Shown piece by piece: positions 22,682 through 35,677 of a stretch of 40,612 bases of DNA. Location: assembly GCA_016930815.1 (NCBI GenBank), contig JAFGFZ010000178.1, positions 1 through 40,612 on the forward strand. Reading direction: 5' to 3'. The position numbers and the translations under genes are program-made. The notes under the pieces are model-generated. The model was not told the DNA's origin. It searched no databases and saw only the letters and a list, made by a program, of their open reading frames with translations. The DNA comes from Pirellulales bacterium. GTDB lineage: Bacteria > Planctomycetota > Planctomycetia > Pirellulales > Lacipirellulaceae. Every line of letters begins with the position of its first letter. Positions within the stretch are counted from its first letter, which is position 1.

Positions 22682-23305
22682 TTAGTTGGAAATCGAGAAT
22701 CCCCAACCGAAATGGGGGGGACGATGACCGTATCGGCGGTAATAGAAGTGGGGATGGGGATAGAACGGGGGCGGACCACAATTGTAATGCCGTTCCTCGA
22801 TAATGACTGGCGTACTGGGAAGCGTTGCCGTACGAACCGTAGCCGGGCGTGGTGTTTGCATGGCCTGAATAACGTCTGTGGCCACCCCCTGTTCATGCAG
22901 GTGGATCACATCGGCGGCCGATAGGGGTGCGATCATGCCTGAGTTCTGAATATAGGTCTTGATCAGGCTTGGATCGACACCGGATCGGCTCATGGCGATC
23001 ACTTCATCGATCGTGGCAGCCCCAGCCTGAACTTCGCGTCCGAGCTGGGCGGCGATGGCAGCTCGGTTCTCGGCCTGGATGTCATCCAAGGCCTGTCCCG
23101 CGACGGCCCCAGTGAGAGCCCCGACTCCAGCTCCAATGGCCGCGCCCGCCCCGGTATCTCCGACCTTGTTCCCGACAAGTGCCCCAAGCCCGGCCCCAGT
23201 CAGCCCGCCGAATAGGGCACCCTGATCGGCATAGTAAGGGGAACGACAGCCCGATGAAACCAATGGGGAAAGTGCAAGCAGCACGACAACCAGTGAGCGC
23301 GACAT
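22682..23305 (-). CDS. Glycine-zipper lipoprotein
   Basis: The 207-residue product has a lipoprotein signal with lipobox VSSGC (Cys at residue 20). A Gly-zipper region of about 45 residues follows (GGLTGAGLGALVGNKVGD and following), which could insert into or line a membrane. A soluble domain comes next, with the element MSRSGVDPSLIKTYI and a VIHLHEQGVATDVI helix found in several envelope proteins. It ends in a His/Tyr/Pro-rich tail. The partner is unknown. It lies 143 bp upstream of the secretin-like gene on the same strand. Confidence 0.82.
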   Translation of the reverse strand: MSRSLVVVLLALSPLVSSGCRSPYYADQGALFGGLTGAGLGALVGNKVGDTGAGAAIGAGVGALTGAVAGQALDDIQAENRAAIAAQLGREVQAGAATIDEVIAMSRSGVDPSLIKTYIQNSGMIAPLSAADVIHLHEQGVATDVIQAMQTPRPATVRTATLPSTPVIIEERHYNCGPPPFYPHPHFYYRRYGHRPPHFGWGFSISN

Positions 23306-23559: not shown

Positions 23560-25005
23560 TCAGGGTGACCCGCCAGATCGGATTCGGTAGACGTGGTGCG
23601 GCCAGAGATAAATCAAGTCATTCGGGGTCTCTTTCCAGTCGTCGTACTTCTCGCCGAAAGGATTGAAGATGGTTTGTCTCCGGTTATTCTCCATATCATG
23701 AATCCAGGACCAATCGACGACAAAGGACCTCCGGCTCGCATGATCCCGGATAAATCGGGCGCGGGCGCGGGCGCGGGTTTGCGTCTCGGGCACGTAAGGT
23801 TCGGGTTCCTGGCCCGGATTAATCTGAGGTCCAATACGATGTTGCAGCATGCCTGCTTTTTCCAAGCGGTTAAAGACAGACTGGCTGCTGCAGAATGCAT
23901 GGTAGCTGTGGTCAAGAAGCGCCAATTCGTTGAAAGCCGGGGGGTGGTCCGGCAGGGATTCCCACGTCAGGTTCATTTCGCGCAAGACGGCCGAGTAAAA
24001 CTCATACTTCGCAAAGGCGTCGAGCCGGGCTGCCAACCAAGGACGATTCATTTGTTTCAACGCGATCAAGGTCTGTTCCCAATCTCGGAGAATGCCCGGG
24101 ATCCAATCGGGCACTTCGCGCAGGGAATTGGCATAGCGATGGGCGGCGTCTAGATAGATTTGCTGTGTCTTGGGAATCAGTGGATCGATACAAAGTGGCC
24201 CGCCGTCTGAGGCGAGAACATTCAGTCGGCGAAGCAATGCAACCCAGGAGTCTTTGGGCGGAAATGCCGCGATTTGCTTCAGGGCCCTCCTGAGTTTCCG
24301 ATCGAAGAAAATCGCCTTCAAGGCCAGTGCCGTGGCGCCGAATTGGAGGGCCAGATTGAACTGGCTCCGATGCCCATCCCCCAGGATTTGGTGATAGCGA
24401 TAGAATTGCGGATCCGGACCCATGTGGTGTTCTTCGCGTGCCGTGCTATGGATGGCCCGGCACTCCGTGGTACCACCGCCGGTTGCCATTTCCATGCGGA
24501 TGGGCCGCACCGCGGCAAGGAATTGGCCACTCGGATACACGATCCCGCCCGCACCGGCGTAAATGCGTGTCGTCAGGAAAGGCAGGATCATCTCGCCGAA
24601 TTCCGACGGGTGCCGTTCGGTCATATGATTCTCGTGCGAACCCCAAATCGGGCAGTGTGCCTGGAGCAAACCACTATGGTTGTTGCTGGCAAGAAGGAGT
24701 TGAATGCCCTCCTCCTGGAGCTTGACAACCGCCTGCCGCACTAAAGATTGCTGGCGTTCCACGATCCGTGCCAAGAGGTAGGGAGACTCACATTCGGCCA
24801 GTGCCAATTCCATGTGGCCACAATCGATATAGACGCGTCCGTAGCCATTGAAGATGCCGGAAACGGCGGGTAGCGCCGGTGCCAGGGTTGCCATCACGTC
24901 AAAAAAACGGCTGGCCCATTCGCGCACGGAACTGTCGCCTTTCCGGATCGACGTGAGGCATTCCAGTTCCGTGCTCATCACGAACTGACTATTGGGTTTC
25001 GGCAT
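23560..25005 (-). CDS. pafA: PafA-like Pup/UBact ligase
   Basis: The 481-residue protein belongs to the PafA/Dop (glutamine-synthetase-like) family that forms or cleaves the isopeptide bond between the C-terminal Glu of Pup and a substrate lysine. It keeps the ExE pair at residues 13-15 (STELEC), YIDCGH at 59-64 with the Asp equivalent to the catalytic base, WGSHEN at 121-126, and the LDAFAKYE and DHSYHAF elements later. I chose the ATG at 25005 because GAGGTGAG lies 7 bases upstream and the conserved ExE segment starts right after it. It is last in the run, 72 bp after the UBact-like gene, where pafA stands in mycobacteria. Ligase rather than deamidase is inferred from this position and the better conserved motifs. 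Confidence 0.85.
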   Translation of the reverse strand: MPKPNSQFVMSTELECLTSIRKGDSSVREWASRFFDVMATLAPALPAVSGIFNGYGRVYIDCGHMELALAECESPYLLARIVERQQSLVRQAVVKLQEEGIQLLLASNNHSGLLQAHCPIWGSHENHMTERHPSEFGEMILPFLTTRIYAGAGGIVYPSGQFLAAVRPIRMEMATGGGTTECRAIHSTAREEHHMGPDPQFYRYHQILGDGHRSQFNLALQFGATALALKAIFFDRKLRRALKQIAAFPPKDSWVALLRRLNVLASDGGPLCIDPLIPKTQQIYLDAAHRYANSLREVPDWIPGILRDWEQTLIALKQMNRPWLAARLDAFAKYEFYSAVLREMNLTWESLPDHPPAFNELALLDHSYHAFCSSQSVFNRLEKAGMLQHRIGPQINPGQEPEPYVPETQTRARARARFIRDHASRRSFVVDWSWIHDMENNRRQTIFNPFGEKYDDWKETPNDLIYLWPHHVYRIRSGGSP

Positions 25006-25077
25006 GATGTTACTCACCTCTGGCACTTTCCTCCCAGATCGGCTGCAGGATCTGTCCCGTGGCCGTTCGTGTGCCGG

Positions 25078-25287
25078 CTATTGTCCTGATCGATTTCTGC
25101 GTAGAAGCAATTCCTGCTCAGCTTTTTCACCGCGCTGGCAATCTTCCAGGGCTGCCCGGGCGATCTTGGCATATTCGGCTGCTTGTTGGAGAAGGGGACT
25201 CGGCTGGGCAGGAGCATCTCCGCCAGAATCAACCATCTCGTCTTCTTGCTCCAACGGCCGTGGGATGATGATCTCGTCACGCAACAT
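25078..25287 (-). CDS. UBact/Pup-like protein modifier
   Basis: This 69-residue protein is strongly polar, without hydrophobic core or cysteine-rich motif. It has an acidic/Pro-rich disordered first half, a helical-looking middle (residues 32-60), and the C-terminus LLLRRNRSGQ. Pup proteins end GGQ or GGE, and the Gram-negative UBact proteins end with an Arg-rich segment followed by T/S-G-E or Q. This end matches the UBact type. The terminal Gln predicts deamidation to Glu by a Dop-type enzyme before ligation. It sits exactly between the Dop-like and PafA-like genes. GAGGAA precedes the ATG by about 9 bases. It would be attached to lysines on target proteins. Confidence 0.82.
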   Translation of the reverse strand: MLRDEIIIPRPLEQEDEMVDSGGDAPAQPSPLLQQAAEYAKIARAALEDCQRGEKAEQELLLRRNRSGQ

Positions 25288-25304
25288 AACCAGGGTTCCT
25301 CAAG

Positions 25305-26885
25305 TTAGGCGCCGTCACCAGGGACGGCAAGTTGGCCCGACAGGTCCATCACGGGATCGGAATCCTGTGCGGATCTTGGGGTATTTGCATCAACTAACAC
25401 ACCTAGCTCTGCCACGCTCTGGGCGGATTGGATGATCGGCCCGAAAGTCTCCTGGTTCAGGCTGTCAATTCTTGGCATGTCGATCCGTAGCCTGGGCCAC
25501 CATCGATTTCGGTTGCGGTACAACTCCACATAGTCCCAATTGACGTTGCTGATATGTTTGGAGAACTTGCGGATAATTCGCCCTCGAGCCCAGGCACATG
25601 TTTCGACAGGCCCGTCGGCAAGGCATGCCCAGGCGTTCTGCATCGTCACCAGCGGATCTACAAGTCCTTCTTCCCAAAGCCGCCAAAGGATCCCCTGTTC
25701 AGGATCCGTGTTGGCAAAATCGTGATCCGCGATCCGCGCGGCGGCACTGCCCCATGCATGGCCGGCACTCAGTAACCACATTAGTTTTGCGGCCCAGTCA
25801 AGTTGTTGGGCGCAGCGGATGAATGATCCCTCTTCGGCGTAACGGGCCAGCGCAATAATTTGGGAAAGAAAAAACGGGGCATCTGGTGCTGATTCATGCG
25901 TGATCAAACCATCCTCGCACATCTTTAGTAGAGTGGACGCCAGTTCTCCGACATATGCGGGAAGTGTGAGCTTGCGGCCGTCCACGGTTGCCGCCGTGGC
26001 GGCAAGACGACACGTGCCCGTATCCAGGCCCCAGCTCCACGTTCGCAATGCCCGCACCGGATCGTAAATATTCAATCGGCAATAGCCTTCCTCGGCAGCC
26101 GCTAGAATGCTCTGGACCAGGCTGCCGAGCATTGCCGCGGATAGGATTGAATAATCGAAACCAATCAGATGCAGACGATCTTGATCCGCGCCCCATGGTT
26201 CGCGGCGCGTATTCAGCAGACCACGGCAAAAGGCCTCGGTCGTCGATAGTGTTTTGAGCTGCGATAGGTGATGGGCCCGGCCGCTGAGACTATAGATCAT
26301 GGAGCCATCCCGCATGGGTAGCAGATAGCCGGCGCCAAAGAAGGGGACAGCCGCCGCCAGCGCGCTGGCAACAAAGCCTAGGACTGCCGGGTGCCGATGA
26401 CTGAGGCACAAATCTTCCCATAGCGGAGTGCTCACGGAGATATTCAAGTGCGTCCCCCAGCTGATGGACGGATCGTACGCATCCGCGTTAGCCGCTGACA
26501 GTGAGTATTGCGCATCTTCGCCCGTCTGGGCCTCGGCATACTTCCGCGCTTGCTCTGCAATACAAAGCGTAAAGATACACTGGGAAGCAAAATGTCTCGG
26601 GTCGGATGTCGGTGCCGTGCATACCTCCACGTGCCCCATGTCGGAGTAGTAGCATTGCCCGTTGGAGGTCCAGTTCCGAAGGCAGTCCATGGAAGAAGAA
26701 GATGGATAACAGCCACCCTTGGAGGCAATTTCCCGAGACCAGACTTCCGCACCATGGGCGCGGAAGACCGGACCGATCTGTTCCAGAATACGGCTCGCCA
26801 CGTTCCAAGAAGCCAACGCTTGGCCGTCCGCATCAACACCCGTGGTGGATAGTTCACAGTCGCGGCCTAGATACTTGACAACCAT
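25305..26885 (-). CDS. dop: Dop-like deamidase/depupylase of the PafA/Dop family
   Basis: The 526-residue protein is a second PafA/Dop homologue. Near the N-terminus it has GRDCEL (residues 7-12), the counterpart of G-x-E-x-E, with only the second acidic residue being Glu. The YYSDMGH motif lies at 79-85 and WGTHLN at 143-148, where the common HEN is changed to HLN. Later come HLIGFD, LDWAAKL and HDFANTDPEQG. Dop deamidates the C-terminal Gln of Pup and removes Pup from substrates. The assignment as Dop rests on its place between the ATPase and the modifier, its greater length, and the modifier ending in Gln. A strong AAGGAG lies 6 bases before the ATG at 26885, so the longer open frame is not used. 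Confidence 0.8.
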   Translation of the reverse strand: MVVKYLGRDCELSTTGVDADGQALASWNVASRILEQIGPVFRAHGAEVWSREIASKGGCYPSSSSMDCLRNWTSNGQCYYSDMGHVEVCTAPTSDPRHFASQCIFTLCIAEQARKYAEAQTGEDAQYSLSAANADAYDPSISWGTHLNISVSTPLWEDLCLSHRHPAVLGFVASALAAAVPFFGAGYLLPMRDGSMIYSLSGRAHHLSQLKTLSTTEAFCRGLLNTRREPWGADQDRLHLIGFDYSILSAAMLGSLVQSILAAAEEGYCRLNIYDPVRALRTWSWGLDTGTCRLAATAATVDGRKLTLPAYVGELASTLLKMCEDGLITHESAPDAPFFLSQIIALARYAEEGSFIRCAQQLDWAAKLMWLLSAGHAWGSAAARIADHDFANTDPEQGILWRLWEEGLVDPLVTMQNAWACLADGPVETCAWARGRIIRKFSKHISNVNWDYVELYRNRNRWWPRLRIDMPRIDSLNQETFGPIIQSAQSVAELGVLVDANTPRSAQDSDPVMDLSGQLAVPGDGA

Positions 26886-26907
26886 GTTTTCTCCTTCCGG
26901 GCGGATG

Positions 26908-28686
26908 TCAGGTGGTTTGAATGTGCATATAGTGAAAGTTGTCCAGTTCTGCGCGCGGCACGGTGTCAACGCTTGCAACGGGCACCTTGATCCGGAGTTG
27001 CCGGATCAACATGTTCTTGTCAGCTTCCATCTGGTGAGCCGTGCTCAGAGCGACCTCCGAAAGACCCTTCTCCAAATCTTCCACGCTGACCGCGGGAAGA
27101 CCGATTCCCCGGACGATCCGAATTGCGGCCAGCTTCTTCGCGAGGATCATTGCTTCCTTGAAATGGACACCTGCCAGAATCTGCCCCGCGGTCACATCGA
27201 TTCGTCGTTGGGTATCCGTTGAATACTGCAAGACCGTGGTTGAGAAGATATTGGTCAGGGCGGGTCGTAAGATATGCGCGCGGATTGCTTGATCATCCAG
27301 ATCCCTGCGGATGGTGTCCTCAACATACCACGGAACGTTCCCCCCGCGCGCATAGATGGCCAGGATGTCTTCCGCGCCACCCAGATCGATCTCCGGCATC
27401 TCCAGATCCAGATCGCCGAGCCGTCCAGGGCGCTTCAAGGCCTCGTCGACTCGTTCCGGGAGATTGGTCATGCCCCCCACGAGGACATAGGCGGGCGGCC
27501 CATCGGTGGAACGGGTTTGCACAAGGCCATCCATTTCCGACAGCAGTGCTTCCAGGGCATCACTTTGGGCAGATGAGGTGATCGCATGATTGGCATCGGT
27601 TCGCTTCCCCAGCGAGTCGACTTCGTCGAATACGACAAACTGGAACAGGCCCCGCTCCCTTGGCTGCGATTGTCGGGCACGGATCGCTCCCCAGAGATCT
27701 TCTCGAACAATACGGGCATCTTCTCCATGAAAGAGATTTTTCGTGGCATTCGGTGGCACGAAGTAGAGCACCACGTCAAAACCATGCTGTTGGCCGAACT
27801 CATGGAGCCAATAGGCGAAACCCCGCACAAAAGCCGTTTTCCCCATGCCAGGCTTGTACGAACTCAGAAGAAAACCTCGCATCGGCTCAAGTCCAAGATC
27901 CGAGCAAACATCGGGATTCAGGACGTGGACCATGACCTCTTCAATCAGCTGGCGGGCGATGGGTTCGATACAAGCCAATTCGTCCAGGCGGGTGTTGATT
28001 TGTTCGATGGGTATTTCAAACCGGCTATGGGTTTCTAGGCCCGGGACGACAGCAATGGCCCGTCCCGAATGATCGCGCTGCAGGACCAGTTTCGAACCAT
28101 GTGGGATTTCTTGCTCGCGGAGGTTATCCGCAAGCCGGACCACGCGTTCTCCATGGGCGTTCTCCGATACATGGACCAAGCCCAGATCCCGATCATGATA
28201 CCCCTTGAACGCCACGATCTGGCCATGCGCGTCAGCGAACAAGGAAGGATCGTCCGCCCAGGTTCCAACCACGACATTCTCACAAACACGGACATATTCC
28301 CATGGTTGGATCCGTTCAAGGGATGCGCAGTCCAGGCTGGGATGGACTGAAAATTCCCTCATTTGATTACCAGAACGGCAGATCGCGCGGGAACCAGACT
28401 CGGCAGCGTGAACAGCTTCCAGCCGATACAATAGTGCGTTTCCCTCCACGAGGTCCTTGAGCAATTTCTCAAGTTTCTCAGCTGACTGTGTGGCTTGAAC
28501 GCAGCTCCGTTTGGCTTTTTTTTCGTGCCTGCGAGCCCGGAGCCATTCCACGGCCAGGGCGCGCGGATCGTTCTTGGAACGCTGGAGAATCTCGTCGATT
28601 TCCCTCAGTTCCTCCACATTGGGTACTTCTTCGTTCAGATCGAAGCCAGCATCTTGAAGGACGGAGATGATATCCGAATTGAGCAT
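26908..28686 (-). CDS. arc: ARC/Mpa-type AAA+ ATPase
   Basis: The product is 592 residues from the ATG at 28686 (AAGGAA about 9 bases upstream). It has a charged coiled-coil segment near residues 40-85, a beta-rich OB-like region at about 110-220, and then one AAA+ domain with Walker A YKPGMGKT (277-284), Walker B FVVFDEVDS (350-358) and the arginine-finger loop RPGRLG (419-424). This is the layout of mycobacterial Mpa, the hexameric unfoldase that captures pupylated proteins with its coiled coil. Its C-terminus ends HIQTT and does not carry the hydrophobic-Tyr-X tail used to dock on the 20S proteasome. No proteasome subunits are encoded nearby. It lies 22 bp before dop and 53 bp after the JAB gene. 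Confidence 0.87.
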   Translation of the reverse strand: MLNSDIISVLQDAGFDLNEEVPNVEELREIDEILQRSKNDPRALAVEWLRARRHEKKAKRSCVQATQSAEKLEKLLKDLVEGNALLYRLEAVHAAESGSRAICRSGNQMREFSVHPSLDCASLERIQPWEYVRVCENVVVGTWADDPSLFADAHGQIVAFKGYHDRDLGLVHVSENAHGERVVRLADNLREQEIPHGSKLVLQRDHSGRAIAVVPGLETHSRFEIPIEQINTRLDELACIEPIARQLIEEVMVHVLNPDVCSDLGLEPMRGFLLSSYKPGMGKTAFVRGFAYWLHEFGQQHGFDVVLYFVPPNATKNLFHGEDARIVREDLWGAIRARQSQPRERGLFQFVVFDEVDSLGKRTDANHAITSSAQSDALEALLSEMDGLVQTRSTDGPPAYVLVGGMTNLPERVDEALKRPGRLGDLDLEMPEIDLGGAEDILAIYARGGNVPWYVEDTIRRDLDDQAIRAHILRPALTNIFSTTVLQYSTDTQRRIDVTAGQILAGVHFKEAMILAKKLAAIRIVRGIGLPAVSVEDLEKGLSEVALSTAHQMEADKNMLIRQLRIKVPVASVDTVPRAELDNFHYMHIQTT

Positions 28687-28739
28687 GGTACTGATTCCTT
28701 TCCGATTCTTTTCTTGAACGGATTGTATCATTCCAGACA

Positions 28740-29771
28740 TTAGTCCTCGTATTGTTGCCATCGTATCGCTTTCAGTTGTCCGCCTCGCCAGGCAAAAATT
28801 CGAAGGATGGGGCGATCCCCTTGCACGCCCGGTTTACGACCGGCAATCGGCATCAACGTCCCCTTACTGGGAAAGAGGGACAACATCTCGTAGTCCTGCA
28901 GGCTGGGGCTCGATTTTGCCAGCAAGCAACCCACTTTCGGTTTGCAGTTGCGGCAATGAGGAGACCAGCCATGGGAATGGAAAACCGTTAGGACGGATTC
29001 CCCTAGACCGCGGAGTTCGCCGATACGCGCTGCTTCCACGAGCCCTTCCGGACTGAAATTGAATGCAGCTGCCATTCCAACATGCCGGGGATCTTCCACC
29101 AGGCTGGCAAGAATCGTAACGATTCGGGTCTCGGTACCCGGCAGTGGTTGAGGAAGGCGGATCAGTTTTCCCAGTACCGCGCCACCCGTCTCTTGGTTCC
29201 CCGCTTCCTCGCAACGCCGGATGGCATCGGCGGCAAAGCGGGCATTGACCAGAACAGGGCGATCAGATTCCAGGGAACCTTCACTGAAACGGCGGACACC
29301 GGCCGCGTCCAAATCCGAGTCTTCGACGGGTGGTGATTGGAGGAGCGGGGCTTCCGGCAGCGCGCCGGAACTCCGCTCCAACGCCACCAGAAGGCGATAG
29401 GCTGTCTGGTCCTGGGACAGTCTTCCCGATTCGCGTAGTTGGAGTGCTTTCCATTGGGCTGTGCGGATCCAGCGTCCTGCCGTGTAATCCTGGTAGTAGG
29501 TCCCCGCCTCACCATTCTCACCAGCGACCAGTTGGACCTGCACCTTCGCCACAGCCGGTTCCTGAAGATAGATTGGACGAATGTTGACATGGATGGTCGC
29601 CGGATCCGCGGGAAATTTCTCGGCAAGCACACCGCGGGTAAAAGTCTCCTCGATCAGTTCACCAAGGTCCTCAGTAACGTTGAAACTGCATATTGGCGCG
29701 CCTTGCGCATCAGGCTGCAAGTACATCTGCAGGTGCAATTCGTGCTCGATTCCTACATGAATGTGTATCAT
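28740..29771 (-). CDS. JAB/MPN-domain isopeptidase (deubiquitinase-like)
   Basis: The product is 343 residues from the ATG at 29771. Residues 1-135 form an unrecognised alpha/beta region. The C-terminal half is a JAB metalloprotease domain with a Glu in QETGGAVLG (Glu194), the HxH pair FHSHGW (His265, His267) and SLQD (Ser290, Asp293), matching the JAMM zinc-binding set E...HxH...SxxD. An unusual insert with CRNC and a third Cys (C273, C276, C282) lies between HxH and SxxD and may bind a second zinc. It should cleave the isopeptide bond made by the neighbouring E1/E2/Ubl system. An in-frame start at 29885 exists, but its extra residues look non-conserved. Confidence 0.85.
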   Translation of the reverse strand: MIHIHVGIEHELHLQMYLQPDAQGAPICSFNVTEDLGELIEETFTRGVLAEKFPADPATIHVNIRPIYLQEPAVAKVQVQLVAGENGEAGTYYQDYTAGRWIRTAQWKALQLRESGRLSQDQTAYRLLVALERSSGALPEAPLLQSPPVEDSDLDAAGVRRFSEGSLESDRPVLVNARFAADAIRRCEEAGNQETGGAVLGKLIRLPQPLPGTETRIVTILASLVEDPRHVGMAAAFNFSPEGLVEAARIGELRGLGESVLTVFHSHGWSPHCRNCKPKVGCLLAKSSPSLQDYEMLSLFPSKGTLMPIAGRKPGVQGDRPILRIFAWRGGQLKAIRWQQYED

Positions 29772-29921
29772 GAATGCTCCATGTATTCTCGGCACCAAAC
29801 AGGAAATGGATCGGTACCGAACGACATCAATCCAAGGATCACTCCAGGGCCCCATGGGACCGCGGGGCACCGGAGCCACAACCAATGGCGCGGCTCCGGC
29901 CCCCGTTGTCCCGCTGGGTCA

Positions 29922-30185
29922 CTAGCCGGCTGAGACCTCGGGCATGACGGTCCATTCGGTATCCGTCACCTCGAGTTCTCCCAGACGTCTCTTGCCGTCG
30001 AGCATCACGCCCCGGCTGAACGCCGTCCAGCGGAGTCCGGCATCGCGGATTTGCATGCGATCCCGGTAATGCTCGACGGCCTGGGCCACGGAGTGTGCTC
30101 TGGAGAGCACGCCGCCGTCCAGGTCGACCTCGACCCGTTTCTGGCGGGCGAGATCCGACATCGTGAACCGATTTAATGCAACCAT
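29922..30185 (-). CDS. Ubiquitin-like protein ending in glycine
   Basis: This 87-residue protein has the pattern of a beta-grasp Ubl. A hydrophobic strand pair (RVEVDLDGG) leads to a helix (residues 31-45). Then come WTAFSRGVMLDGKRRLGEL, reminiscent of the ubiquitin region around the FAGKQLEDGRTL turn, a strand WTVMPEV and a free C-terminal Ala-Gly. The C-terminal Gly would be adenylated by the neighbouring E1. Because the protein ends right at Gly, no processing would be needed before activation. The Shine-Dalgarno AAGGAGGT, 7 bases before the ATG, is the strongest in the operon, which fits a modifier made in excess. Sequence identity to ubiquitin itself is low; fold assignment is by pattern and context. 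Confidence 0.75.
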   Translation of the reverse strand: MVALNRFTMSDLARQKRVEVDLDGGVLSRAHSVAQAVEHYRDRMQIRDAGLRWTAFSRGVMLDGKRRLGELEVTDTEWTVMPEVSAG

Positions 30186-30284
30186 GATTTACCTCCTTTC
30201 TCGGTTTGCATAAGGTTGGGGTGGTGAAATTGTGACAAACAAGGAACAAAACCATTTTTAAACGACCGTTGCACAATGAATGCC

Positions 30285-31196
30285 TCATTCGTTCACGATT
30301 CCGCTCGGAATTTGCCAGACTCCTGCTGGAGATCCTGGTTCCTTCCTTGCGCAAAGATCAAAAGTATCGAGGAACATGTTTTCAAAAGAACGAGCGACAT
30401 CCGGCTGACTTGCGAGGATCTCTAATATCGTGCCGCAGTAAAACGCCGCCGTCGCAACCGCGCGGCATGCGTGAACAAGCCAAATCGAATCGATCAAGCC
30501 GGAATGCAGGCACGTATCCGCCACCACGGTATCTTTATGGCGGGCGAGTCGGGCATGGCGGAGCCGGGCATTGAAAAACAACGCCTGGCATGCAACGGCC
30601 CGGTGATTCGTCTCGTGGCAACTTGGTACCACCACACGACTGATCCGAAGATTCCGCCCTTCGATCACGAGCCTGACTGCCCTGGATTCCCCGCGAATTC
30701 GCATCCGTACCTCCCAGCCGTTGTCCAGCCGCACGATCGCCTCTTCATCCAATCCGGCCCCATCGAGAGCAGCCTGCACTTGTCCTGGTGTGATCACACC
30801 ATTTCTATGAAGATGCGGTTTCCGGTGCATTTGGAGCGCGTCCCGTAGGCCTTCGCGGATTTCACGGAAGCTGCCCGCCAGATGCAGTTCTCCATCAAGG
30901 CGCGTGTCGGCGACAACGGCCGTCTGCCCGCCTGAGGCGGCGAATCGGACGTTGCCTGGCAATTGGTAGTTGGCCTCCAATGCCACATGGGGTGGTGGCG
31001 GATCCTCGACTTCATGGTGCACGCGCAAGCAATCTCCAGGCTCGATCCGTAATCGGGCGGCATGGGAACCAACCTTGAATGTTCCCTGATATCCGTTCTC
31101 CAATGTCAAACCACGGATTTTCGAGAGCAGCCGGCGCTGCCGAGCTCCCTGATCCATGGGGGTGAATTCATGTTGGTGATTCGCGTCTCTGGCCAT
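30285..31196 (-). CDS. Operon protein of unknown function with an internal duplication
   Basis: The product is 303 residues from the ATG at 31196 (GGAGAAG upstream). It appears to contain two related alpha/beta modules. One centres on VRFAASGGQTAVVADTRL followed by a helix (REIREGLRDAL); the other on LRHARLARHKDTVVADTCL followed by a long helix (WLVHACRAVATAAFYC). The shared T-VVADT core and the strand-strand-helix order resemble YbjN or type III secretion chaperone (CesT-like) folds. This is a by-eye fold guess. Its place between the E2 and Ubl genes suggests that it binds the modifier or a target of the pathway. Confidence 0.65.
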   Translation of the reverse strand: MARDANHQHEFTPMDQGARQRRLLSKIRGLTLENGYQGTFKVGSHAARLRIEPGDCLRVHHEVEDPPPPHVALEANYQLPGNVRFAASGGQTAVVADTRLDGELHLAGSFREIREGLRDALQMHRKPHLHRNGVITPGQVQAALDGAGLDEEAIVRLDNGWEVRMRIRGESRAVRLVIEGRNLRISRVVVPSCHETNHRAVACQALFFNARLRHARLARHKDTVVADTCLHSGLIDSIWLVHACRAVATAAFYCGTILEILASQPDVARSFENMFLDTFDLCARKEPGSPAGVWQIPSGIVNE

Positions 31197-31298
31197 GAAT
31201 CTTCTCCAATGCATTGCCTAGAAGGAGTTTCGAAACCGGGGTTGTGAGGATGGAAAACTCGGAGAAACTGCACTGTTCATTGGGATTTGGAATGTCAC

Positions 31299-31925
31299 TT
31301 AGTACAAAGGGTCAACCGGCTCCAGTCCCACCATGGCCCCGGGGTCCAGCGCGAAGTAGCGTGCCGCTTCGATGTCCGCCGGATGTGCTGGGCGGCGATT
31401 CTGGTATGTGAGGATCGGATAAATATGGTTTTCGAGGAGCACATCCAACGGGAGGGGTCCCGGCGGGAGGTTTTGTTCGTCACCCAGGCAGAGGACCCCC
31501 TGCCGCCGCGCATAGTTCGGATGGAAATAGGCCTGATCGCGATCCAGCAGGACCGCCACCGTGGGCGGCTCGGGATTCTCGAACATGTCCCCACGATACA
31601 GAATCCGGCCGCGAACTGGGCCCGGCATGAGTTCCACCACGGAGTAAGAATCCACCTTGCGCTTGTAGCGAGTCGCGATCTGGAATCGGAACATCCGCGG
31701 GGCTGGATGGGGTTCGGGCTCGACCCGAATCTTCGTTGTTCGTTGAAGGAGCCCATCGCAACATATGCGCCAATTGTTGGCGAAGAACTCACGCGTCAGC
31801 TTGCCCAGCGGCGTGTCTTCTTCAGGCATGTCGTCCCGGCCGACCGCGTTGGAAAGCAGATCGTGCAAGATTGCATCCAAGTGATCGAACTCGCGGACAG
31901 GATTAGCCGGATCGTTTGGCATCAT
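31299..31925 (-). CDS. E2-like ubiquitin-conjugating enzyme
   Basis: The 208-residue protein matches the UBC fold in its second half. A strand series ends in VAVLLDRDQAYFHPN, with the HPN triad at residues 135-137, and GVLCLG places the candidate catalytic Cys at 146, nine residues after HPN as in eukaryotic E2 enzymes. It continues with LPLDVLLENHIYPILT, resembling the helix after the active site. The first 60 residues form an extra helical region. It would carry the Ubl as a thioester from the E1 to substrate. GGGAG lies a few bases before ATGATG; either ATG may be used. The E1 gene ends 136 bp upstream and the duplicated-module gene starts 102 bp downstream. Confidence 0.85.
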   Translation of the reverse strand: MMPNDPANPVREFDHLDAILHDLLSNAVGRDDMPEEDTPLGKLTREFFANNWRICCDGLLQRTTKIRVEPEPHPAPRMFRFQIATRYKRKVDSYSVVELMPGPVRGRILYRGDMFENPEPPTVAVLLDRDQAYFHPNYARRQGVLCLGDEQNLPPGPLPLDVLLENHIYPILTYQNRRPAHPADIEAARYFALDPGAMVGLEPVDPLY

Positions 31926-31995
31926 GGATCTCCCATTGCATGTCAGGCAGAAAAAGATTCGATTCGAGTTATCCCAGAACCAAATGGCTGATTGA

Positions 31996-32024
31996 ATGAT
32001 TGAAATTGCACATGATTGAAATTG
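31996..32024. repeat. Short direct repeat between the E1 and E2 genes
   Basis: ATGATTGAAATTG occurs twice in tandem (31996-32008 and 32012-32024, 16-bp period) in the 136-bp AT-rich spacer between the E1 and E2 genes. A spacer this size is unusual in an otherwise tight operon and could hold an internal promoter or regulatory site. There is no direct evidence for either. Confidence 0.5.
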
Positions 32025-32061
32025 AAGTGAATTGGTGAGTTCTCCTGAAATTTTCTATTTG

Positions 32062-33231
32062 TCAGTCCAGAAGCAGTCGCAGTGGCCGCGCCCCCTTGGC
32101 TCGAGCTACAAACATGGCACCGGCACGGGGCAACCCGAACTCACTTAGCGGTATGTTATCTATCTGCAACTCGGCAACCGTCTCCTTCGTCAAGATTGAG
32201 TGCTGCGTCCAATCAAACCAGCGCATCGTTTCATGGCATTGCAGGCAGTCCGGGGGCTTGGCCCATCGTGTTCCGATCACTTCCCGGCGAGCGCCACAGG
32301 AGCAGATGGCTTCGATACAGAATGCATGACCATAGGGTTCCAGGGTTACCTGGCGGTCACTGAGCCGTATCGCAGCCTCATCGAACAATTCGGCGAATGT
32401 CAGCTCGCTGGCCACGCGCCCTATCGGAGTCAATTTCCAGCAAAGATGTCCACTCAAACATGAATTCGACCTCTGTCGTGAAAGTGGATACAGACACCAG
32501 TTTGTCATATCCAGTACGATTTCTCGATTGACAACCTGATCCAGATCATTCCCTGTAGCCAACCGCTGCGCTTGCACCAAACCGAAACCGCCGATTACCG
32601 CGGCCAGGGCGCCACCGGCAATCGTTGGGGGCCGGCCGTTGATTGGTTGGCCCGGGCAGGGTGTTCGCTGCGTGGGGCGGAACAGATCATGGAAATCGTA
32701 GGTGCACATTTGACAGGCCCAGCCCGCCCCGCCGTGAGAACAAAGTACCCGTCCCAACTCCATTTCTCCGCTGCCATCGACGGCCAATCGTAATAGGGGA
32801 ATTCGCAATCCATTGCTTAGATACGCCAGCGGGATTGCCAGCGCCGGATCGTCGCTGCAATCGATCAGCATATTCAGTTGCGCAATTTCTCCTATGCCCG
32901 CGTGGCGTATATCGTACGCCATACCGACAGCACGGCCCGGACAAATGGCGTCACAAGCGGCGACCAGCGAATCGACTTTCCGGATCCCTTTTCGAGTGAA
33001 CTGGGTTCCTTCATTGACATGTTGGCCAATATCAAAATCCCAGACCCGCATACGGGCTCCCGACAGAATCGTTTCCAAGCCAACGCGATACCCGACCACC
33101 CCCGCTCCCACGATACCCAGGGTTGTCTGCTGCCACTGGCAGAACCGGTCACCGCGGAAAAGACTCGTTCGGCGAAGGCGGTCAAACGGGTCCTCTTCCT
33201 GAACTGGCATATCTTGTCTATTTGGTTTCAT
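32062..33231 (-). CDS. E1-like (ThiF-fold) ubiquitin-activating enzyme
   Basis: The product is 389 residues from the ATG at 33231. It is a Rossmann-like adenylation domain with GIVGAGVVG at residues 39-47 (GxGxxG), the acidic VWDFD at 63-67, and Arg/Asn positions around HVNEGTQFTRKG. Two Cys pairs (173/176 and 258/264) match the structural zinc of MoeB/ThiF/E1 proteins. The Cys in TPCPGQP (192) is the best candidate for a catalytic thioester Cys. A second zinc ribbon (310/312 and 329/332) and a C-terminal tail make it larger than MoeB. It should adenylate the C-terminal Gly of the Ubl and pass it to the E2. ATGA overlap with the upstream gene's stop indicates translational coupling. Confidence 0.87.
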   Translation of the reverse strand: MKPNRQDMPVQEEDPFDRLRRTSLFRGDRFCQWQQTTLGIVGAGVVGYRVGLETILSGARMRVWDFDIGQHVNEGTQFTRKGIRKVDSLVAACDAICPGRAVGMAYDIRHAGIGEIAQLNMLIDCSDDPALAIPLAYLSNGLRIPLLRLAVDGSGEMELGRVLCSHGGAGWACQMCTYDFHDLFRPTQRTPCPGQPINGRPPTIAGGALAAVIGGFGLVQAQRLATGNDLDQVVNREIVLDMTNWCLYPLSRQRSNSCLSGHLCWKLTPIGRVASELTFAELFDEAAIRLSDRQVTLEPYGHAFCIEAICSCGARREVIGTRWAKPPDCLQCHETMRWFDWTQHSILTKETVAELQIDNIPLSEFGLPRAGAMFVARAKGARPLRLLLD

Positions 33232-33842
33232 GGCCTCTCCTGGCGCCTCCACCCGGCAAGATCCATTAGCGATTTGAGGGACTCCCAACGCCGCGGCTCC
33301 GGTGGTGCCCAGCCGGCCCGAGCTGGACTGTGACCGCAATTGGGACAACGAAAAGTCGTGCCCGACTGCTGTGTCATCTTCCACACGGACAGTTTGTAGA
33401 TCATGCCGCATGGGATGTCGGGCGTTCCGGGACAAATGGCAATGGGATCTCCTGCCACCAGCCGCGCTTTGGTCAGAAAACAGAAAGAATTTGGCGGATA
33501 CCTTGAAGGATCATATTCCGTTTCCTCAACCGAATACTCCACGGAAATCCAATACGTCTCGAGGCGGATCTCAAATCGGTCCGCGTGTCGCAATGCGTGC
33601 ATTCCCAATGCTAGCGGTATTCCGTTGCAGGCTATCTGGCCTGCAGCCTGCTCGGACACCATCACAATGCCAAGAATCCGGTGATGCGGTTCAACAGGCA
33701 GGACCACCACGCCGGCATCGTTCTGGACCACACTCGGCATCAGCACTCCATGTTCATCAAACCGAAATGAAAGTGGCTGATCGAAATCGAATTTCGAACA
33801 GACTTCTTTGTCTCTGCGCCAAAGGAATCGTTTCATGACCAT
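33228..33842 (-). CDS. FHA-like/zinc-ribbon protein, possible E3 of the Ubl system
   Basis: The product is 204 residues from the ATG at 33842; the ATG at 33836 or a TTG further upstream are alternatives, and no clear Shine-Dalgarno is seen. The middle contains IACNGIPLALGMHALRHADRFEI, the NG...G...L...GD-like pattern of an FHA-type beta sandwich. A zinc-binding unit follows, with Cys at 137 and 145 and CPNC at 166-169 plus a His. This treble-clef-like spacing is related to bacterial RING-type domains reported in operons with E1, E2, Ubl and JAB genes. As first gene of the operon, overlapping the E1, it is a reasonable E3 candidate. Its binding partners are unknown. Confidence 0.68.
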   Translation of the reverse strand: MVMKRFLWRRDKEVCSKFDFDQPLSFRFDEHGVLMPSVVQNDAGVVVLPVEPHHRILGIVMVSEQAAGQIACNGIPLALGMHALRHADRFEIRLETYWISVEYSVEETEYDPSRYPPNSFCFLTKARLVAGDPIAICPGTPDIPCGMIYKLSVWKMTQQSGTTFRCPNCGHSPARAGWAPPEPRRWESLKSLMDLAGWRRQERP

Positions 33843-34303
33843 GAGATTTTGAAGGAAAGACAGTTGGATGCTTGATTGCACTAACAATAGATTTAGTGGA
33901 CACTTGAACCATCGGATTCTGGACTGTATTTCAATATTTTGACTCTGATCGTTTTGGCCGAGTTGTTCCTTGCAATTTTTTGATTGAGTTGTTTTGTTTT
34001 AATTTATTAATGGATCACGATTCAAATCCGGTGCAGACCTGCGCGATGCGCTGATGCGCACTTCGATTTTTTTCATTGTTCATCTCGAAATAATCTCTAT
34101 AATCAGGGTATTAGGCGAATCGTTGGAAATCATCTTTTGAGCGACAACGTTAGGCATCCCTTCCTCCAAACCACGCCCGAAACATCCCGCCTTTAAACAC
34201 GCCTAATTTTAGCTTCCCGTGAGTGATACACCGCGCTGCAACGAGTTGCATCACTTATCTTTGTTGTCGTTCGCTTCTCCAATTGCCAAAGAGAGGGAAT
34301 CAA
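33843..34303. other. AT-richer divergent intergenic region without a gene
   Basis: This 461-bp region separates the minus-strand Ubl/Pup operon from the plus-strand orphan gene and must contain the promoters of both. It is visibly AT-richer than its surroundings. It holds a GC-rich stem (GCGC repeats at 34041-34059) followed by seven T residues at 34067-34073, and a sigma70-like promoter for the plus strand listed separately. No convincing minus-strand promoter could be picked by eye. No RNA gene was recognised. Confidence 0.6.
34076..34103 (+). promoter_or_regulatory. Probable sigma70-type promoter of the orphan gene
   Basis: TTGTTC (34076-34081) and TATAAT (34098-34103), spaced by 16 bases, give a perfect -10 box and a 4-of-6 -35 box. 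The transcript would start near 34110 and have a leader of about 190 bases. Pattern match only. Confidence 0.5.
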
Positions 34304-35677
34304 ATGGCCAAGAAAAGAAAGTATCTAGTGGAAAATACACTCAAAAAACTTACTTCGGAGAATCCCGAAATACGACGCGAAGGTTGGGAAACAATTTACC
34401 AACATAGCGCGCTGTTTCGCAAAAGTCTTAACGAAGCACAGATCCATTACTTGGAAAACCTGATGGAGGAAGAGAAGGATCTGAAGACCTATCGGATAGC
34501 GAATAAAGCCATGCTAGCCTTAGCACTGCGCTCTTCCGACACAATTCTGCCATTCAATAAACGCCCGTTATCTAGGACTTCCAGCAAAATGATTAGGGAT
34601 ACCATAAAACTTTTAGCGATTTGGCTATGGTATCCCTTTGGAAAGGCATCGGCCGTCTTAGCCGTCACGGCAACGAACTATTGCCGGCGCGACGAAAATG
34701 CTCAAATATGGCTTGCAAGGAGGCTTTCCTTTAGTGAATTTAACAAAACCGATTTCCCACATATTTCCCTTGAAAATCCGGAAGTCGAGGGCGTTTTCTT
34801 TTCAGATAAATACCATGCTTTCTGTATCGTTGGCCGGCTCGGTTTATTTGGCTCAAAGGCTCTCCAAAGGTTTAGTAACAACGACTTGCGTTTTGGCTTC
34901 GTAAAGCATCGCCGCCCCATCGGTTTGCCTCCGGGGGAACTCGATGCCGAATATCATTGTGTCTTCGAACGTACCAAAAATTCCCGGAGAATATTCTATC
35001 GAACCACGGAAGAGAATGGTGAGCGTACGGATTACGTGGTAATTCAGCGATATCAAGTCAAGCTCGACGGCACAAGAACCGTGGTGGTTATCATTATTGC
35101 TGGGGCTTCATCATTGGGTACACTGGCAGGTGCCCGATGGGCCGCCTACAACCTGTTCCAACCAACGGACACAATCGACAAAGGGCCCATTCCGGTGCCA
35201 CGGGGAATCTCGCCGCACAGCACGATGGAGGTTCTGCTGCGCGCCCGGGCGAAAGTGACCACCGGCGCTTGGGATCACCCTGAGATCGATTTGCTACAGC
35301 TCTATGTGGACGGGGCTAGCTGGTCATTGAAAGATCAAGCATGGCATAAAGCTGCAATCAAACAAATCACGATCATTCGCGATAAAGGCCAAGCGACCAA
35401 GATTCTTTTTGACAATCAACCAACTCGGTTGGATCCCAGAAAGCAGATGTTTCGTCTGCTGGTAGCGGTGGCCCAGAAGTCGCTCCAGTGTAATTATTCC
35501 GAGTTGGACATCACCGCGCTTAATTCGGATGATACCATCTGGGAGAAGCCGAAACCCGGCATCCCATATGTTCGCTATCAGCTCCGGCTCTTGCGGAATC
35601 GTTATCTGAGAGAATCGCTCCAGACGCGCGGGCACCTCCAATTCAACGCCCGGGTTAGAATCTTGGACAAGCCGTGA
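34304..35677 (+). CDS. Orphan protein of unknown function
   Basis: The product is 457 residues from the ATG at 34304 (GAGAGGG about 8 bases before it). I do not recognise the family. The first 100 residues are charged and helical, with HEAT-like helix pairs. The middle (about 155-320) is an alpha/beta segment with the order SDKYHAFCIVGRLG, EYHCVFERT, TDYVVIQRY, and VVVIIIAGASSLGTLAGARWAAYNL, whose AGxxxxGTxAxA loop resembles a nucleotide- or ligand-binding glycine loop. The C-terminal about 100 residues look like a winged-helix (RKQMFRLLVAVA, VRYQLRLLRNRYL). A sensory or regulatory role is a guess. The 5' half of the gene is AT-richer than its neighbours, suggesting more recent acquisition. 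Confidence 0.7.
   Translation: MAKKRKYLVENTLKKLTSENPEIRREGWETIYQHSALFRKSLNEAQIHYLENLMEEEKDLKTYRIANKAMLALALRSSDTILPFNKRPLSRTSSKMIRDTIKLLAIWLWYPFGKASAVLAVTATNYCRRDENAQIWLARRLSFSEFNKTDFPHISLENPEVEGVFFSDKYHAFCIVGRLGLFGSKALQRFSNNDLRFGFVKHRRPIGLPPGELDAEYHCVFERTKNSRRIFYRTTEENGERTDYVVIQRYQVKLDGTRTVVVIIIAGASSLGTLAGARWAAYNLFQPTDTIDKGPIPVPRGISPHSTMEVLLRARAKVTTGAWDHPEIDLLQLYVDGASWSLKDQAWHKAAIKQITIIRDKGQATKILFDNQPTRLDPRKQMFRLLVAVAQKSLQCNYSELDITALNSDDTIWEKPKPGIPYVRYQLRLLRNRYLRESLQTRGHLQFNARVRILDKP

Follow-up and report, generated by a model that had tools for sequence, protein, structure and literature searches.

Ubiquitin-type and Pup-type protein tagging are considered to have arisen independently, and their chemistry differs. 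Bacterial operons carrying RING, E1, E2 and JAB genes were reportedly described by Burroughs et al. in 2011, and the archaeal ubiquitin operon of Caldiarchaeum includes Rpn11 and a RING protein. Non-actinobacterial Pup was found to be sporadic and mostly accompanied by proteasome genes, and transmembrane (TM)-bearing Pup ligases without proteasome genes were noted in Rhodopirellula and Plesiocystis, with no E1-E2 link mentioned for them in the Pup portion of that work (Iyer et al., 2008; PMC2588565). Pup/UBact and ubiquitin-like operons are treated separately in the relevant portion of PMC11354881. Here, genes for both types of tagging were found in one cluster at positions 23560-33842 of a 40,612-nucleotide contig from a Pirellulales bacterium (the window, meaning the whole stretch analyzed; genome G000, contig C185; assembly of 528 contigs totaling 5.55 Mb, with a completeness of 89%). 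The favored reading, with a probability of about 0.5, is that one conserved operon encodes two tagging pathways around a single Mpa/ARC-type unfoldase that may serve both tags. No description of the two pathways combined was recognized in the literature searched, and the novelty of the combined operon is provisional because the likeliest source, Burroughs et al. 2011, lay outside that search.

As in the Pup/UBact pathway, Dop, a peptide ending in G[EQ], PafA and an Mpa-like ATPase were all present and adjacent; unlike in that pathway, the searched genomes yielded no 20S core, the ATPase had no HbYX tail, and E1, E2, ubiquitin-like modifier (Ubl) and JAB genes lay in the same operon. The bacterial ubiquitin-like operons (Bil, Bub and RING/E1/E2/JAB) have in common with the locus a candidate E3 of RING-like type as well as E1, E2, Ubl and JAB, and the E1 profile of the locus matched CBASS Cap2 and Citrobacter BubCD chains. 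The locus differed from Bil/Bub-type operons in its TY-chaperone-like protein, Mpa-type ATPase, Pup half, separate E1 and E2 genes, and Ubl ending in Ala-Gly. The E1/E2/RING/Ubl/JAMM set also occurs in the Caldiarchaeum operon, whose ubiquitin was matched by the predicted Ubl fold, but the Pup half, the Mpa-type ATPase and the FHA-like domain set the locus apart. Finally, the Rhodopirellula-type membrane Pup ligases likewise belong to the PafA family and lack a linked proteasome, but are single TM-bearing genes with no ubiquitin-like half in their flanks (28 of 28 loci, bar one 16-bit E1 match). The ten genes of the locus, in order of transcription, were as follows.

33228..33842, minus strand: FHA-like and RING-like protein (candidate E3), 204 amino acids (aa); from an AlphaFold2 (AF2) model, Foldseek and family Pfam matches
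32062..33231, minus strand: E1-like adenylating enzyme, 389 aa; from an orthologue profile
31299..31922, minus strand: E2-like protein of the ubiquitin-conjugating enzyme (UBC) fold, 207 aa; from orthologue profile A4
30285..31214, minus strand: TY-chaperone/YbjN-like protein containing a duplicated module, 309 aa (starting at 31214 or 31195); from family Pfam matches
29922..30185, minus strand: predicted Ubl, 87 aa, ending PEVSAG; from AF2 and Foldseek
28740..29771, minus strand: JAB/JAMM metallopeptidase, 343 aa, having an N-terminal region as well as a Cys3 cluster within its JAMM loop; from profile and motif
26908..28686, minus strand: AAA+ unfoldase of the Mpa/ARC type, 592 aa (or longer, if it starts at 28761); from profile A6 and NCBIfam
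25305..26885, minus strand: Dop (depupylase/deamidase) family protein, 526 aa; Pup_ligase 5.2e-32
25078..25287, minus strand: Pup/UBact-like modifier, 69 aa, ending NRSGQ; from its G[EQ] end after dop
23560..25026, minus strand: PafA-family Pup ligase; Pup_ligase 3.2e-37

All ten minus-strand reading frames were open. The RING and E1 genes overlapped by ATGA, and the remaining genes were separated by 17-150 bp. The compact ten-gene cluster, with gaps of at most 150 bp, that a first-pass annotation of the window had described was thereby borne out. The preferred dop start was 26885, and comparison with the related locus L018 indicated that pafA probably starts at ATG 25005 rather than GTG 25026. 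In relatives, for which the start closest to the profile match was taken, JAB overlapped the ATPase gene (-4) in L026 and L080, and the ATPase and Dop genes overlapped (-4) in L025, L026 and L081. The claim that two tagging pathways stand in one cluster resembling a transcription unit was strengthened by the fixed gene order across phyla and by these ATGA-type overlaps, which span the junction of the halves. Transcripts with a terminator and a separate promoter between 28686 and 28740 had been named as evidence that would count against a single unit; no terminator-like site was found there on the minus strand by a sequence scan, which is weak evidence and leaves transcripts outside its reach.

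The JAB-ATPase-Dop junction was found in 16 genomes belonging to Planctomycetota, Acidobacteriota, Verrucomicrobiota and one 'Proteobacteria' metagenome-assembled genome (MAG). These genomes, with their loci in parentheses, were:

G000 (window), G266 (L018), G019 (L019/L082), G192 (L020 and L064/L089)
G050 (L022/L075), G013 (L025/L076), G016 (L026/L073)
Chloracidobacterium (L074), Acidobacteria (L077), Phycisphaeraceae (L078), Bryobacterales (L079)
'Proteobacteria' MAG (L080), Pedosphaera (L081)
G656, G540 and G507 (L122-L124), of the phylum of L074

The junction lay on one contig in 15 of the 16; in G192 it was split between L020 and L064/L089, both of which end inside the ATPase gene. Gene order was tested for the nine genes with profiles (all but the Pup-like peptide). 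All nine stood in the same order on one contig in 10 of the 16 genomes (the window, L018, L019, L022, L025, L026, L074, L078, L081 and L123), and four more loci were cut by contig ends (G192, L077, L080 and L124). The nearest full loci, L018 and L019, retained the order at 29-57% protein identity to the window, and farther loci were matched by profile. An initial contig scan with the window PafA sequence found no relatives; a profile search of genome contigs with an alignment containing only JABs of hybrid loci, in which both halves are joined, found ten loci, and all ten carried the junction. The genomes are mostly MAGs, which would favor an explanation by chance adjacency or assembly artefact. 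That explanation is untenable given the same order, at divergent sequence, in independent assemblies of several phyla, including G266 with 80 contigs and a listed completeness of 98%.

The protein between the two halves is predicted to be an Mpa/ARC-type ATPase. Its best NCBIfam match was TIGR03689 pup_AAA (73.8 bits, under the cut-off of 504.75), and its orthologue profile (A6) covered Mpa residues 51-558 at 1.7e-97, with Cdc48-type chains scoring higher. Mpa is known to read Pup, and dop directly followed the ATPase gene in every hybrid contig reaching that far. Both observations would suit two pathways that are co-regulated and mechanistically separate, belonging to one stress or quality-control regulon and sharing transcription alone, with an ATPase that reads Pup only. 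Against this, the same ATPase type followed JAB with no dop, pup or pafA behind it in L083, and also in L085, where the contig ends at that point and the genome has no Pup_ligase match. Conversely, a Pup half alone was preceded by this ATPase type in L024, with L088 upstream, and pup_AAA was the best NCBIfam match of the ATPase in all three loci. Since this type of ATPase accompanies each half in the absence of the other, one unfoldase that may serve two tags is the best-supported reading, and fully separate pathways appear an unlikely, though serious, alternative. The earlier suggestion that one ATPase may serve two tags thus gained support.

Among the window proteins, only the two Pup_ligase genes and the AAA protein exceeded Pfam cut-offs. 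The matches to ThiF (E 0.0014) and to Prok-JAB (E 0.0029) fell below them, and the E2, the duplicated-module protein, the Ubl and the Pup-like peptide had no meaningful Pfam match. Because the window proteins alone match weakly, the identities of E1, E2, Ubl and JAB were taken from orthologue profiles and a structural model. The E1 profile (A3) matched MoeB best (3.5e-30), with ThiF, UBA, NAE, SAE, Cap2 and BubCD chains below. Its GxGxxG motif, D65, K85, D127, C173/C176, C192 and C310/C312/C329/C332 were identical in all 11 aligned loci, predicting an E1 with ATP-site residues and a candidate catalytic Cys, which we take to be C192 by analogy with MoeB/Uba4. The E2 profile (A4) matched UBC at E 3e-4, and the L074 E2 fell below the Pfam cut-off; Cys145 was conserved in 11 of 11 aligned loci and HPN in 10 of 11, consistent with an E2 of the UBC fold with a predicted active-site Cys. 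The JAB profile matched BRCC36 (E 0.0085), and Pfam Prok-JAB was above cut-off in L074. The E, HxH, S and D residues expected of a JAMM peptidase, as well as three extra Cys, were invariant in the six aligned loci.

The AF2 model of the Ubl (predicted local distance difference test, pLDDT, 91.5) matched the Get5 Ubl, ubiquitin and Caldiarchaeum ubiquitin in Foldseek (best E 1.9e-4), which suggests a beta-grasp modifier with a C-terminal Gly. Sequence matches were weak (SAMP1 0.12, or 0.0021 for the L074 Ubl; YukD in 3 of 11, best 0.025). The Ubl ended exactly at Ala-Gly in five of 14 assessable loci and carried 1-12 extra residues in nine, L080 and L124 being left out since they are cut before the Ubl end; a tail beyond Ala-Gly fits a modifier trimmed by JAB. 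An AG near the end is not rare alone: across ten loci, it was found in 353 of 2223 open reading frames (ORFs) that were 45 aa or longer.

K16, A86 and G87 of the Ubl were invariant in 11 of 11 aligned sequences. K16 is a candidate site for pupylation or chain formation, which would suit a tag-on-tag reading, in which one modifier is joined to the other or one pathway controls an enzyme of the other. This reading also draws on a second two-modifier arrangement, in which the block from E1, E2, Ubl and JAB to the ATPase is followed by another JAB/E1 block (L083:223-9836, L125:3-8308 and L126:4183-10258). The place of the Pup half is taken in L083 by a JAB resembling PRTRC_A together with a ThiF-like E1, as in the PRTRC cassette (JAB protein A and ThiF-like E1); this PRTRC-like block is absent from the window. 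L125 and L126, which are nearly identical and truncated upstream by contig ends, have JAB and E1 in the corresponding place. These pairings suggest that the ubiquitin-like block takes a second modifier system as its partner, which was Pup in 16 genomes and the other JAB/E1 (PRTRC-like) in three others. A conserved lysine, however, can be explained in many other ways, and the tag-on-tag reading is considered improbable.

For the fourth gene, the family rather than the window protein gave matches: TY-Chap1 in one of ten members (E 6.7e-5) and YbjN in two of ten (best 0.0015), with none for the window protein. The name TY-chaperone/YbjN-like, for what the first-pass annotation called a duplicated-module protein, comes from these relatives. 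TY-Chap families are described in the corresponding portion of PMC9503650.

The model of the first gene product (pLDDT 82.9) was compared with the PDB by Foldseek, and FHA was named in the titles of most of the 50 listed matches, at a TM-score to the target of at most 0.71. The matches were weak by E-value (best 4.1e-3, none at 0.001), and an FHA beta-sandwich fold is predicted with that qualification. The canonical phosphothreonine-binding motif of FHA domains was not spotted by eye in the family alignment. Prok-RING_1 matched six of ten family members and not the window protein, which retains C121, C137, C145, C166 and C169. Residue 124 of the window protein is Thr, against Cys in most relatives, and the next ligand positions are without His, which leaves a single zinc site out of two; two sites in cross-brace order were not found in the window protein, most ligands of one being gone. 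In the alignment, the zinc ligands were more complete in the broad clade of loci outside the window's own. The RING-like label is thus kept for a zinc domain of that kind, with the qualification that the window protein keeps only one of its two sites. The architecture recalls the eukaryotic FHA-RING ligases CHFR and RNF8. Short proteins that looked coiled-coil by eye lay just upstream of the RING gene in L074:5492-6073, L081:5633-6247 and L073:5522-6139; these are a possible extra component with no telling Pfam match.

In the Pup half, the window Dop scored 86.2 bits with NCBIfam Dop vs 51.6 with PafA (a 35-bit preference), and the window PafA scored 96.3 bits with PafA vs 75.1 with Dop (a 21-bit preference), all under cut-off. 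D9, E11, D82, H85 and E87 of Dop were invariant in 12 of 12 aligned sequences, and the ExE motif and conserved Asp and Glu of PafA in 11 of 11 aligned hybrid sequences. The two proteins are thus predicted to be paralogues within the carboxylate-amine ligase family, with the NCBIfam equivalog cut-offs unreached. A small modifier ending in G-E or G-Q sits beside the ligase gene. The Pup-like peptides had no Pfam or NCBIfam match, but a peptide ending in G[EQ] followed dop in all 15 assessable loci (the L077 contig ends before this point), against a background of 24 of 2223 G[EQ]-ending ORFs in ten loci, Pup-like peptides included. In the phylum of L074, an AAA+-like protein (AAA_lid_9) was observed after pafA in L074:16596-17732 and L122:15502-16680, and one under the cut-off lay between the Pup-like gene and pafA in L123:10001-11338.

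A Pup_ligase match was present in 38 of 392 sampled planctomycete genomes, and a dop and pafA pair was recognized in ten. The ubiquitin-like half was attached to seven of the ten pairs (to that of G192 via two contigs). Halves that are separable in most relatives, which the first-pass annotation had held would refute a joint system, were therefore not observed, yet the halves can be apart. The family JAB was detected in 26 of the 392 genomes at E 1e-6 and exceeded 100 bits in eight; seven of these eight were linked to dop/pafA and G306 was unlinked, a count that leans towards hybrids because hybrid loci were the sole source of the JAB profile. In the phylum of L074, six of 386 genomes had a JAB match (E 1e-15), four of them linked to dop/pafA (including G392) and two with a second JAB/E1 block. 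In the phylum of L081, one of 377 genomes had a match, G397 itself.

Several observations weigh against the favored reading. The dop and pafA pair lacked the ubiquitin-like half in the remaining three genomes, G051, G037 and G320; the contigs of G051 and G320 are short, yet the search for the family JAB came back empty for all three. By locus, the ubiquitin-like half was lacking at L023, L024, L027 and the Pup and PafA locus L021, and no family JAB was found in the genomes of these four loci (L023 and L027 being on short contigs). The reverse was seen in L083, which is without the Pup half, and in L085, whose contig stops past the ATPase and whose genome has no Pup_ligase match. Two junction genomes departed from the common order: in L079 the only other Pup_ligase match, a PafA, was on another contig, and in L122 the genes from E2 to PafA were present with other genes at L122:5500-6756 where RING and E1 were expected. 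Many of the loci were found by hybrid-derived queries, which favors hybrids, and absences are not proof because the genomes are mostly MAGs.

Sequence divergence of the halves was compared by distance matrices of 11 loci. E1 and Dop agreed with r 0.93 (0 of 2000 permutations as high), but the overall agreement of the halves was driven by two clades. Within the broad clade, agreement of E1 and Dop was weak in a Mantel test (r 0.39, 266 of 2000), which also counts against the favored reading, whereas JAB and ATPase, across the junction, agreed with r 0.75 (0 of 2000). Quick trees of E1 and Dop alike separated a window clade of four from the remaining hybrids, with long branches and weak support for the deeper order. 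L023 and L027, without the ubiquitin-like half, nested among hybrids in the Dop tree, and these trees are compatible with a joining of the halves either once or twice. Taken together, the interpretation of the first-pass annotation was supported in part: its joint cluster was upheld, its suggestion of a shared ATPase gained support, and its RING label needed qualifying.

Reduced arrangements were also seen. In G320 (L027:923-3267), an FHA/RING gene and a 64-residue E1 remnant stood directly before dop-pup-pafA, which looks like a deletion from E1 to the ATPase. The locus of G238 had PafA and a Pup-like peptide only. L021:7514-9256, in a one-contig genome, encoded a PafA 34% identical to that of the window, preceded by a peptide ending SSGE, and no dop or ubiquitin-like gene was found in the 20 kb examined.

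The proposition that every planctomycete PafA gene carries a ubiquitin-like half was refuted by 28 TM-bearing single-gene loci of 27 genomes, consisting of loci from 26 further genomes and two more loci of G037; G191, with fragments only, was left out. In each of the 28, a simple hydropathy count assigned 1-4 TM-like segments to the one PafA-like gene. Applied to 16 hybrid or pair-type entries, this count gave 0 for 14 of them and 1 for the other two, L022 and L024. The E1 match noted above for their flanks was in L140. In L139, one ATPase match of 22 bits was observed in the flanks.

HbYX is the 20S-docking motif of such ATPases, and this tail was found on none of the 11 aligned ATPase sequences. 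No 20S core genes were found in 13 operon genomes by a PF00227 search (17 genomes searched in all; G656, G540 and G507 lay outside it); seven of the 13 were listed at 89-98% completeness and six had no figure. A 20S proteasome elsewhere in the genome was rejected, as the PF00227 matches were read as HslV (L001, L070, L071, L072 and L096-L100) or Anbu (L101 and L102), with HslU read adjoining in L001, L070-L072, L097 and L099. These labels rest on reading by eye, with no HslV or Anbu model behind them. Neither the alpha and beta subunits nor the HbYX C-terminus of a Pup-20S proteasome was thus observed.

The data establish which genes are present and in what order, how far the locus and its residues are conserved, and that 20S genes were not found by the searches made. 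For the favored dual-tag operon, we infer co-transcription, Ubl conjugation, each catalytic step and sharing of the ATPase, as follows. JAB would trim the Ubl tail beyond Ala-Gly where one exists; E1 would adenylate the Ubl and load it onto the cysteine of E2; recruitment of the substrate would fall to the FHA/RING-like protein and the TY-chaperone; and JAB may also take the Ubl off again. Independently, Dop would deamidate the G-Q peptide, PafA would attach it to substrate lysines and Dop would remove it. The ATPase could then pull on Ubl-, Pup- or doubly marked substrates, leading to remodeling or disassembly. Because no 20S core was found, unfolding, or handover to another peptidase, would replace proteasomal degradation. 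The broader proposal, of a dual-tag remodeling machine without a proteasome core, whose unfoldase would read both a beta-grasp Ubl and a chemically unrelated short Pup-like peptide, inherited as one unit across several phyla, with the ubiquitin-like block and ATPase forming a module that pairs with second modifier systems, is put forward tentatively and falls somewhat short of even odds. A conserved dual operon with one ATPase and no 20S found makes an unfoldase reading two tags, and tags that can be combined, testable, and opens the question of what tagging does in proteasome-less bacteria.

The patchy distribution would also fit an anti-phage or conflict system in which tagged invader proteins are fed to the unfoldase. 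PADLOC models matched L074 proteins (E1-E2 3.9e-17, JAB 8.8e-8; ATPase to TRIP13 1.5e-24 and IetA 1.5e-22), but these were read as superfamily-level matches. The window E1, E2 and JAB had no PADLOC match and the window ATPase had one weak match, and no nuclease or toxin effector was recognized among the ten genes. A role in defense is accordingly held to be very improbable. Membership in a PADLOC defense system was rejected, there being no specific match to the proteins of any system.

Two neighbors of the operon were also observed in the window. Upstream, on the plus strand at 34223-35677, lay a 484-aa open frame with no Pfam match at E 0.01. Adjoining the other end of the operon, positions 22682-23305 encoded a Gly-zipper protein (Pfam 2.5e-8).

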